From Pedobacter cryophilus (GTDB lineage: Bacteria; Bacteroidota; Bacteroidia; Sphingobacteriales; Sphingobacteriaceae), in NCBI RefSeq assembly GCF_005116455.1, contig NZ_SWBP01000005.1, forward strand, positions 186,001 to 250,000: 64,000 nt of DNA, written 5' to 3'. Under the pieces are notes generated by a model. The model ran no database searches, had not been told where the DNA came from, and worked only from the letters and a program-made list of their open reading frames with translations. How positions within the stretch are numbered: position 1 is the first letter of the stretch; each line of letters begins with the position of its first letter. A program made the translations under genes and the position numbers. This document shows positions 35,005 through 38,578 of this stretch, piece by piece.

Positions 35005-35323
35005 ATTAATTAAGTCTTGTTTGAATAAAAGTAAAATTATTGTAAATAATTATCAATACCACGAAATGGGTATTTTTTTGAAAGAGAGATTAATTTTACT
35101 AAAGGTTTTTCGCTGATATTTCGCCTTTAATTGGGCAGAAACTGAGTAAAATAAACGGGGGCGAAGCGGCATCTTTTTACAGCAGAGAGGGTGTTATGGG
35201 GTAAAAAATACAGCAAAGCACCCGACTGGCCCAAATAATAAGCGAATATCCTTGCTTTTCAAATAATGGATAATGCTTAGTTTAAATTTTTTATTTTCGC
35301 AGTTCAATATAAAAATCGCAAAA
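35005..35323. other. Divergent intergenic region with REP-like copy E
   Basis: 319 bases upstream of leuS. Bases 35155-35232 hold a diverged REP-like element (annotated separately). The remaining sequence is AT-rich. A weak TATTTTCG box occurs about 25 bases before the leuS ATG. I see no gene. Confidence 0.5.
35155..35232 (+). repeat. REP-like element, copy E (diverged)
   Basis: GGCGAAGCGGCATC leads into TTTTTAC (35174-35180), which pairs with GTAAAAA (35201-35207) around a longer GC-rich loop; CAGCAAAGCACCCGACTGGC follows. The left flank matches copies A and B, but the stem sequence is different and still self-complementary. Confidence 0.5.
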
Positions 35324-38300
35324 ATGGATTATCAATTTAAGCAGATAGAGCAGCAATGGCAAAAATTTTGGGCAGAAAACGAAACCTTTAAAGTAGAGGT
35401 TGATGTTAACAAACCCAAATATTATGTTTTAGATATGTTTCCTTACCCAAGTGGGGCAGGTTTACATGTGGGCCATCCGCTGGGATATATTGCTTCGGAT
35501 ATTTTTGCGAGGTACAAAAGGTTAAAAGGATTTAATGTTTTGCACCCAATGGGGTATGATTCTTTTGGTTTACCAGCAGAGCAATATGCGATACAAACTG
35601 GGCAGCATCCGGCAAAAACAACAGAAACCAACATTAACCGCTACCGCCAACAGTTAGATAATTTAGGTTTTTCTTTTGATTGGAGTAAAGAGGTGCGCAC
35701 CAGTTCGCCCGATTATTATAAGTGGACGCAGTGGATTTTTATGCAGCTGTTTAACTCGTGGTATAATTTAGATACCAACCAGGCAGAGCATATTTCTACC
35801 CTGATTGAGAAATTAGAAACCATACCGGCTCAAGAAATTAATGCGGTTTGCGATGAAGATGTACAACATTTGCTTCCTAGCGATTGGAGTACATTAAGCG
35901 GAGAAGAAAAACAAGCCGAATTATTAAAATACAGATTAACTTATTTAAGAGAAAGCACTGTAAACTGGTGCGCTGCTTTAGGAACTGTTTTAGCCAATGA
36001 TGAGGTAAAAGATGGTTTTTCTGAACGCGGTGGTTTCCCCGTTGAACAGAAAAAAATGATGCAATGGAGTATGCGTATTTCTGCCTATGCAGAGCGTTTA
36101 CTACAAGGTTTAAACCATATTGATTGGCCAGAGCCACTAAAAGAAATGCAGCGTAACTGGATTGGGAAAAGTGTGGGGGCAATGGTGAAGTTTAGCCTCA
36201 TCCCCAACCCTTCTCCAAAGGAGAAGGGAGCGCAGGAGAATACTAAATTGGGTTATGAGACTGCTAATTCTCCTTTTTGGGATTTGTTGAAAGAGAATTC
36301 AAAAGAAAATAGAAAAAATGCTACTGATGCAGAATTAGTACTGTGGCAAAAATTAAGAGATAGCCAAACAGGATTTAAAATAAGAAGACAGCATGTAATT
36401 GAAGGTTTTATTGCTGATTTTGTTTGTTTATCAAAAGGTTTAGTTATTGAAGTTGATGGTGGTTATCATTCTAAAACAGAAGCTTTAGAATACGATAAGC
36501 AAAGAACCGAATTTTTAAACCAAGCAGGTTTTGAGGTGATTAGATTTTCAAATGAAGAAGTAATCAATCAAACTGATAAAGTTGTTTCGGATATAAAAGA
36601 AAAGTTAGAGCGTTTAACCTCAAAGTCAGGGGCTCCCTCTCCTTTGGAGAGGGCGGGGGGTGAGGCCATTGAAGTTTTTACCACTAGAGTAGATACCATT
36701 TATGGAGTTTCATTTTTAGTAATTGCGCCTGAGCATGAATTAGTAGCTCAAATAACTACGCCAGCGCAACAAGCTGATATTGATGCTTACATCGCACAAA
36801 CCAAAAAGAAATCGGAGTTAGACCGTATGGCAGATACCAAAACGGTGTCGGGGGCTTTTACGGGTAGTTATGCACTTAATCCATTAGATGGAACAAAAGT
36901 GCCAGTTTGGATTGCCGATTATGTATTAGCCGGCTACGGAACAGGAGCAGTAATGGCGGTTCCATCCGGAGATCAGCGTGATTATTTATTTGCTAAACAT
37001 TTTAATTTGCCAATTATTCAAATTTTAGATGCGCAACAAATTGAAGAACAAGCCGACCCTACTAAAGAAGGTAAATATATCAATTCTGGTGTAATTAATG
37101 GCTTAGGATATAAAGAAGCGAGTGTTAAAATTGTTGAAGAACTAAAAGAAGTAGGCATGGGCTATGGCAAAATTAATTACCGTATGCGTGATGCTATTTT
37201 TGGCCGACAACGTTATTGGGGTGAGCCGGTTCCGGTTTATTTTAAGCCTGCCCGTTCCGCAGGCGGGAATGGTTTGCCTTACTTAATTGATGAAAGCGAA
37301 TTGCCTTTGCTATTACCTGAGGTTGATAAATATTTACCTACCGAAAGTGGCGAACCACCTTTGGCAAGAGCTAAGGATTGGAAATATAAAGACGAATATG
37401 AGTACGAGTTAAGCACTATGCCGGGTTGGGCGGGTAGTAGCTGGTATTGGTACCGTTATATGGATGCTAAAAATGATTTGGCTTTCGCCGATGAAAAAGC
37501 CATTTCTTATTGGAAAGATGTGGATTTATACATTGGAGGCTCTGAACATGCTACCGGACACCTTTTATACAGCCGTTTTTGGAATAAATTTTTGAAAGAT
37601 TTAGGTCATGTTACCGAAGAAGAGCCTTTTAAAAAATTGATTAACCAAGGAATGATTCAGGGGAGATCTAATTTTGTTTATAGAATTAATGATGCAGAAG
37701 GAAAAGGAACAAATTCTTTTGTTTCTAACGGATTAAAATCTGAATACCAAACAACCGCATTACATGTAGACGTAAACATTGTAGTGAATGATATTTTAGA
37801 TATTGATAAATTTAAAGCATCAAGAGAAGAATATGCTAATGCCGAATTTATTTTAGAAAATGCCAAATACATTTGCGGTACTGAAGTAGAAAAAATGTCT
37901 AAATCTAAATTCAACGTAATAAGTCCTGATGATTTAGTAGAACGTTACGGTGCTGATACTTTGCGTATGTATGAAATGTTCTTAGGTCCGTTAGAGCAAA
38001 GTAAACCTTGGAATACCAACGGAATTGAAGGTGTTTTTAAATTCTTAAGAAAGTTTTGGAGGTTATTTCATGATGAAAACTGGAATTTTACAGTTTCTGA
38101 TGCAGAACCTACTAAAGCGGAGTTAAAATCATTACATAAAATTATTAAAAAAGTAGAAGATGATGTAGAACGTTTTTCTTTCAATACATCTGTTTCTAGC
38201 TTTATGATTGCGGTAAATGAGTTAACAGATTTAAAATGCAAAAACAGAGCAATTTTGCAAGATTTAGTGGTTACGCTATCCTCTTATGCTCCTCATATTT

Positions 38301-38578
38301 GCGAAGAACTTTGGGTGCTTTTAGGAAATAAAGCAGGTACACTTTCTTATGCGGCTTATCCTACATTTAATCCGGCTCATTTGGTAGAGAATGAATTTAA
38401 TTATCCGGTTTCTATCAATGGTAAAACAAAAACCAATGTGAACTTGCCATTAAGCATGGAAGTAGCCGAGGTAGAAAAATATATTTTAGAAAGCGAAATA
38501 ATCACGAAATATCTTGATGGTAAGGCGCCTAAAAAAATAATTGTGGTAAAAGGTAGAATTATAAATATTGTGGCTTAA
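35324..38578 (+). CDS. leuS: Leucine--tRNA ligase with in-frame DUF559 nuclease-domain insertion
   Basis: Class I synthetase that charges tRNA-Leu. About 1084 residues from ATG 35324 ([16 protein letters not shown]), against about 930 expected. The frame extends upstream to 35273, but that prefix is not part of the family. HIGH appears as [10 protein letters not shown] and KMSKS as [16 protein letters not shown]; the tRNA-binding and C-terminal domains are intact. At the entry of the CP1 editing domain, between [14 protein letters not shown] and [13 protein letters not shown], about 158 residues are inserted that contain a DUF559 endonuclease-like domain. A second, 7-residue insertion (PARSAGG) is encoded by a palindrome at 37247-37267. 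The frame is open throughout, so the single leuS seen here is presumably functional. Confidence 0.95.
36193..36668 (+). mobile_element. DUF559-encoding element inserted in frame in leuS
   Basis: About 475 bp (158 codons). The ends are imperfect terminal inverted repeats of about 38 bp, starting GCCTCATCCCC at the left and ending GGGGGGTGAGGCC at the right. Each contains a perfect hairpin: CCCTTCTCC/GGAGAAGGG at 36208-36228 and CCCTCTCC/GGAGAGGG at 36635-36653. Inside is a DUF559 domain: [20 protein letters not shown], then [27 protein letters not shown] and [12 protein letters not shown], with the Asp and Glu-x-Asp expected of a PD-(D/E)XK nuclease site. The insert contains no Met codon, so it has no internal ATG in this frame and depends on leuS translation (a TTG start is conceivable). 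It is related to the pheS insertion at 8942-9065. Confidence 0.82.
37247..37267 (+). repeat. 21-bp palindromic in-frame insertion in leuS
   Basis: Between PVYFK and NGLPYLIDE of leuS, 21 GC-rich bases encode PARSAGG. The segment starts CCTGCCCG and ends GCAGGCGGG, with GCCTGC/GCAGGC pairing from 37246. The same type of palindrome occurs near 3509-3533 and 15770-15791. The length is a multiple of three, so the frame is kept. Confidence 0.65.

Follow-up and report, generated by a model that had tools for sequence, protein, structure and literature searches.

The window analysed here (a stretch of 64,000 nucleotides of Pedobacter cryophilus DNA) contains a leucyl-tRNA synthetase gene, leuS, whose reading frame runs through an insert that encodes a nuclease domain. 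This raises the question of what such an insert is, how it reached an essential gene and what becomes of it in the protein. We consider it probable (roughly 0.78) that it belongs to a family of homing-endonuclease-like selfish mobile elements, built as palindrome, nuclease and inverted palindrome, that are tolerated as an extra domain of the host protein.

The insert in leuS

By ORF reading, the leuS frame is uninterrupted across the insert. The true start is probably position 35324, as genes of relatives start at a matching Met (MDYQF). The NCBIfam model leuS_bact matches the gene with 907 bits, in three separate stretches. Approximately 156 additional codons lie in the turn that opens the CP1 editing domain, and the distance from NWIGKS to FTTR is 168 residues, versus 18 in the native-looking loops of relatives. 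The features are:

35273..38578, + strand: leuS, the leucyl-tRNA synthetase (LeuRS) host gene; a single open frame of 1101 codons
36195..36666, + strand: the whole in-frame element, with outer ends GCCTCA...TGAGGC; edges good to approximately 3 bases
36195..36240, + strand: left end of the element, with palindrome core at 36209-36227; 43 of 46 bases are common to the miaB copy of the same genome
36287..36607, + strand: DUF559 nuclease domain (residues 339-445 of LeuRS), with a predicted EDxHD/Vsr-like fold
36633..36666, + strand: right end of the element, an inverted counterpart of the left end; its palindrome core lies at 36635-36653
37247..37267, + strand: a second, unrelated in-frame palindrome in leuS; approximately 8 codons without counterpart in relatives L024 and L025 (by eye)

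The element is 472 bp long. An in-frame insert with a complete DUF559 domain had been noted in the initial annotation, and Pfam bears this out: PF04480 matches LeuRS with an E value of 1.5e-32 over profile positions 3-108 of 109, in an open frame, and the LeuRS editing domain (PF13603, residues 463-624) follows directly. The edges proposed earlier (36193-36668) differ by a few bases from those placed here (36195 and 36666). Hairpin-bearing inverted repeats were also correctly recognised at both ends; they are 26 nt long and 81% complementary, with perfect hairpin cores CCTTCTCCAAAGGAGAAGG (36209-36227) and CCCTCTCCTTTGGAGAGGG (36635-36653). A degenerate form of the core (two mismatches or fewer) occurs at just two places in the window, both of them element ends, and at none in 100 shuffles. 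The reported absence of Met holds for the insert in the window and fails for the family, as inserts of relatives contain Met.

Terminal inverted repeats are present as in insertion sequences and transposons. No encoded transposase was identified in the insert, where the Pfam matches are DUF559 and a sub-cut-off match to REase_MTES_1575, and by-eye comparison of occupied and native loops revealed no recognisable target-site duplication. Approximately six native residues look replaced in occupied loops (by eye). A second full LeuRS was not found in this genome (3.99 Mb, 16 contigs); thus, the interrupted leuS presumably works.

The unrelated palindrome at 37247-37267 is CCTGCCCGTTCCGCAGGCGGG, with one genome match at two mismatches or fewer. 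In relatives L024 and L025, an extra nuclease-less palindrome (NSLSFGEGRGEA or NPLSFGEGRGEA) occurs elsewhere in leuS and is missing from the gene in the window.

Occupancy of the leuS loop and descent of the inserts

The initial annotation had set beforehand that presence of the insert in all close relatives would speak against a mobile element. The insertion is not universal: the nuclease is at the site in 9 of 18 genus genomes (one copy, in G013, is frame-broken), five have other short repeats, three are insert-free (G005 and G008, with loops of 18 residues each, and G011, with 12), and one, G014, has a leuS contig (L052, C95) that stops within what looks like the left end of the element. 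A second G014 contig (L035, C35) starts inside a DUF559 domain, which suggests an assembly break at the repeat.

In the family, this leuS site (site 1) has the nuclease in at least 17 of 161 genomes. A 120-residue query spanning the loop has matches in 158 of the 161, at least 125 of them as one contiguous match. Twenty family loops were fetched, picked as longer or split; 19 are in frame (that of G146 has native length) and one is without a contiguous match. Nuclease-less pairs of the leuS-element palindromes occur in three leuS loops (L354, L355, L364), and one loop has the right end only (L350). The CP1 turn is a repeat hot spot in this family. As it accepts unrelated short repeats too, recurrence may reflect tolerance rather than targeting. 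Same-site inserts were identified in the named relatives Pedobacter glucosidilyticus (L241), P. arcticus (L243) and Daejeonella (L246), and also in Flavobacterium (L268, L287) and Psychroflexus (L269, L278). Short in-frame inserts of unrelated repeats were seen in the CP1 turn of L351, L352, L357, L359, L362, L363 and L369.

The tree of 154 DUF559 domains groups by host gene, with 27 label changes versus 94.1 with shuffled labels, and metH-type copies span five families. The nucleases at leuS site 1 fall in two separate clades, A and B (each 100/99), with different palindromes. The host leuS genes of the genus group together as a single clade (82/84, 14 rows), though their inserts are split between A and B. 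Clade A inserts are from the genus and the family; clade B is shared with another family (f4) and with genus g17. The insert-free leuS of G011 groups closely with those of G010 and G012, both of which carry B (100/100). Site 1 was thus apparently entered by two nuclease clades.

Synonymous sites give a mixed picture of age. The comparison was matched by amino acid because codon make-up differs between insert and flanks, so that an uncorrected comparison could mislead. Conservation is higher in the insert than in the flanks for 4 of the 21 pairs, with p no greater than 1.1e-5 (G001-G003, p 1.1e-5; three g21 pairs, p <1e-7), and two pairs show a weak excess (p 0.016 and 0.043). The remaining 15 pairs show no significant excess of conservation in the insert (p >0.05), which is what vertical descent would predict. 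Some inserts therefore look younger than their host genes, and others do not.

These distributions bear on the possibility that the insert is an old, useful LeuRS domain, such as a defence or regulatory nuclease, inherited vertically. The low dN/dS of the inserts (below), the clustering of domains by host gene and the occurrence of metH-type copies in five families are consistent with this. However, the distribution is patchy, one loop contains two separate nuclease clades, close leuS relatives differ (G011 is empty among G010 and G012) and the same DUF559 family sits in many unrelated proteins. We consider an old domain decidedly unlikely. In phage and plasmid collections, the DUF559 relatives identified (3 phage and 39 plasmid records) were all distant, at below 60% identity; a carrier of the element was not found there.

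The nuclease, its palindromic ends and other copies in the genome

The likely acidic active-site residues pointed out in the initial annotation are near-invariant over 114 DUF559 domains. Q38, D47, E58, D60 and D73 are each present in 114 of 114, H64 in 113 and E19 in 112, and this near-invariance of acidic, His and Gln positions is the same for in-gene and standalone domains. Median pairwise dN/dS, quoted because synonymous sites are saturated, is 0.093 for leuS inserts within the genus (based on 6 unsaturated pairs of 15), 0.098 for g21 (6 of 10), 0.086 for hisF copies in g14 (3 of 6), 0.127 for icmF copies (3 of 28) and 0.254 for metH copies (2 of 28). For comparison, the leuS flanks have values of 0.039 and 0.074. 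An IQ-TREE codon run on one set gave an omega of 0.020.

The predicted fold of the domain (pLDDT 82.9) was matched by Foldseek to 3hrl, a putative endonuclease (E 2.5e-8), to the catalytic domain of the homing endonuclease I-Bth0305I (PDB 3r3p, E 5.9e-5) and to Vsr (E 0.059). The model points to a catalytic fold of the EDxHD/Vsr-like kind, and its conserved acidic and His positions would correspond to the EDxHD motif. A predicted structure of the whole LeuRS was poor (pLDDT 49.3 from 19 sequences) and was set aside.

GC-rich hairpins (stem of at least 7) occur beside DUF559 in 122 of 220 flanking windows (up to 180 bases next to the domain, 114-domain set), versus 7 of 228 control windows. They were found upstream, downstream and on both sides in 57, 57 and 49 of 73 named loci (best-scoring relatives), and in 28, 23 and 19 of 39 phylum long-frame loci. 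The hisF clade is mostly below the threshold (1 of 26 upstream, 3 of 26 downstream), with stems mostly of 6 bp. Hairpins beside DUF559 are frequent, not universal.

Palindrome distances were compared for 77 of the 114 elements, those whose two sides both have a usable hairpin (37 were dropped). The two ends of one element resemble each other (0.139 versus 0.321 shuffled; 0 of 2000 shuffles). Palindrome distance tracks nuclease distance, with a Mantel r of 0.49 (0 of 1000 permutations, shared ancestry ignored), and r is 0.254 when the pairs compared differ in host gene or include standalone copies (0 of 1000, shared ancestry again ignored). Among same-genome pairs the correlation is not significant (98 of 1000, 24 pairs).

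The flanking repeats were expected to recur in the genome, and they do: the palindrome core TCTCCWWWGGAGA occurs 15 times, twice within leuS, and the reversed control pattern not at all. The gene miaB contains both ends in frame without the nuclease. Its left end is that of the leuS element at 43 of 46 bases, and its right end has 31 of 33 alignment columns in common with it. The miaB loop pattern could be read in 12 of 18 genus genomes (6 were not read that way); such a palindrome pair is present in six of the 12 (G000, the genome of the window, and G001, G002, G003, G005 and G015), and in the other six the loop measures 12 to 17 residues. The aspartyl-tRNA synthetase gene aspS (L008, contig C1 of G000) has an in-frame solo palindrome like those of the leuS element, and N-terminal palindromes were seen in murD, argB and a cystathionine gamma-synthase gene.

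Two further DUF559 copies were identified in this genome, L002 and L003. The first (contig C11) lies between hisA and hisF and has an internal TAA; the hisF N-terminus there now includes palindrome-derived reading. The second (contig C9) is a standalone DUF559 gene amid several CCCCCTCACGGAGGGGG-type repeats, with neighbours that by eye resemble gap and pgk.

Alternatively, the palindromes themselves may be the mobile unit, moved by another enzyme (a RAYT/Y1 transposase or general recombination), with DUF559 a captured passenger. Solo palindromes and unrelated short repeats do likewise enter coding loops, and the genome has six Y1_Tnp matches. However, palindrome type tracks the nuclease even across different host genes, the TCTCCNNNGGAGA core is in none of the six Y1_Tnp loci (approximately 3.3 kb each), one of these loci (L398) is flanked by a different palindrome, and the conserved active site of the nuclease speaks against a passenger. 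We regard this as unlikely, though the least so of the alternatives, and mobilisation by the Y1 transposases of this genome is unsupported, as their loci are without the leuS-type palindrome. The Y1_Tnp gene of L398 (contig C15) has GGATAACCCTCGGGTTATCC palindromes on both sides and looks like a separate RAYT-like pair.

Host genes, frame-keeping and relation to known elements

The initial annotation predicted DUF559 in frame within other housekeeping genes of Bacteroidota, and such cases are common. Hosts of the scanned examples were named by NCBIfam and Pfam. DUF559 lies within leuS at three sites (site 1 and two others, L292 and L276), and within icmF, metH, recG, valS, ileS, a ligase-associated DEXH helicase gene, hsdR, hsdM (below the model cut-off), a type ISP gene, an Eco57I-type gene and a UvrD helicase gene. 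N-terminal fusions were identified for hisF, hemF, gmk, ispF and a solute-binding protein, and a C-terminal fusion for truB. The hisF N-terminus is fused in frame to DUF559 in 26 analysed family domains. Standalone copies make up 52 of the 114 analysed domains, a set in which in-gene copies are over-represented because long-frame matches were fetched fully and standalone ones in part.

Frames were read around DUF559 matches in the family and phylum samples (for the phylum, 40 long-frame places taken among the matches listed) and at 80 named loci. These best 80 of 480 relatives comprise leuS site 1 (30), recG (15), other (15), standalone (11), icmF (6), truB (2) and leuS site 2 (1); by eye, the 15 'other' include four icmF and one recG. 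We counted distinct DUF559 domains between recognisable host flanks in any frame, with near-duplicates removed. Of the 88 distinct copies with both flanks readable, 87 have host and nuclease in a single open frame; most loci were found as good-quality DUF559 matches, which may favour intact copies. By host, the counts are 39 of 40 for leuS site 1, 4 of 4 for site 2, and 11 of 11 for icmF, 8 of 8 for metH, 19 of 19 for recG, 4 of 4 for hsdR and 2 of 2 for the DEXH helicase. The sole exception is L020, the leuS copy of G013. Selection would purge broken insertions in essential genes, so the 87 of 88 do not prove that insertion aims for the frame. They do support the earlier suggestion of a selfish element that persists in an essential gene by keeping the frame, a suggestion that was right in outline for a phenomenon broader than it supposed.

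The frame counts also bear on whether the insert is taken out by translational bypassing or RNA splicing, as in byp elements or introns, leaving a normal LeuRS. Palindromic hairpins stand at both joints of the insert, and the mitochondria of Magnusiomyces are known to have GC clusters that are bypassed (PMC8811140, in excerpt). Removal would, however, make frame and stop codons irrelevant, yet 87 of 88 copies are in frame and open. No Rfam intron match was found in the region, which argues against a group I or II intron, and no Pfam intein family (Hint/splicing domain) was found in LeuRS, which argues against an intein. We consider removal very improbable, and the frame statistics favour a protein that keeps the domain.

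A mobile element of the kind favoured here consists of a palindrome, a DUF559 (EDxHD/Vsr-like) nuclease and an inverted palindrome, and brings along neither a stop codon nor an intron or intein. Insertions that last would be those in tolerant loops that keep the frame and leave it open, and the host protein would thereby gain a nuclease domain. The nuclease, readable here solely within the host protein, may cut DNA that resembles its own ends or the unoccupied site, and repair would copy the element into the cut site in a homing-like manner. Copies that later lose the nuclease would be reduced to a pair of palindromes, a single one or a changed loop, with the frame still kept.

A mobile element in an essential gene would be expected to be spliced out, as introns or inteins are. 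Known homing endonuclease genes often sit in self-splicing introns or inteins (PMC3943268, in excerpt). In the leuS element neither was detected, and the frame is kept. Like the EDxHD homing endonuclease I-Bth0305I (3r3p), it has that nuclease fold (predicted), occupies conserved genes, is patchy and shows hints of lateral spread.

The palindromic elements of Rickettsia and Wolbachia (RPE/WPE) are inserted in unrelated genes with the frame intact, in solvent-exposed areas; RPEs are repeats of 100-150 bp, and the excerpted text mentions no encoded enzyme (PMC3767692, PMC10969869). As far as those excerpts go, the present elements are alike in placing palindromic repeats in unrelated coding genes without frame breakage. 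They differ in that the full element encodes a nuclease, and the resemblance to RPEs is limited to degenerate copies. GC clusters of yeast mitochondria (var1, byp) are GC-rich palindromes that lie in frame within coding sequence and are associated with gene conversion; in Magnusiomyces, translation skips the clusters of coding regions, and the excerpt mentions no nuclease within the cluster (PMC8811140). Unlike such clusters, which are organellar and, as there described, skipped, the DUF559 inserts appear to be translated.

In RAYT/REP systems, a small DNA enzyme (a Y1 transposase) has cognate palindromes and enzyme-less copies. The present family has the same make-up, but its enzyme is DUF559 and not a Y1 transposase, and the Y1_Tnp loci of the genome are without the leuS-type palindrome. 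In fungal mitochondria, LAGLIDADG homing endonuclease genes are inserted in frame in the ribosomal protein gene rps3. These organellar fusions likewise place a nuclease gene in frame in host coding sequence; we know of no cognate palindromes for them. By analogy, the leuS element would work like a homing endonuclease element and a Rickettsia-type coding palindrome combined, and it fails one defining feature of each, as it has no splicing host and codes for an enzyme. Among the titles and abstract openings listed from the open-licence PMC literature, none describes such elements.

The nuclease-coding parasite appears to persist in the finished protein of several essential enzymes across the phylum. 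We give even odds to the wider proposal of phylum-wide, splicing-free bacterial homing elements, in which each in-gene nuclease would be produced solely as a domain kept by its housekeeping enzyme, would recognise the palindromes at its own ends and would spread by horizontal transfer into tolerant loops of essential genes. If so, aminoacyl-tRNA synthetases, helicases and B12 enzymes would be carriers of a selfish nuclease. The matching end palindromes and visible decay series offer a direct test of selfish DNA becoming protein domains. DUF559, a 'domain of unknown function', gains a likely role, and over-long leuS, recG, metH and icmF genes in Bacteroidota would be explained. In valS (L262), the insert lies just ahead of the TTRPET strand, the counterpart of LeuRS FTTRVDT (by eye).
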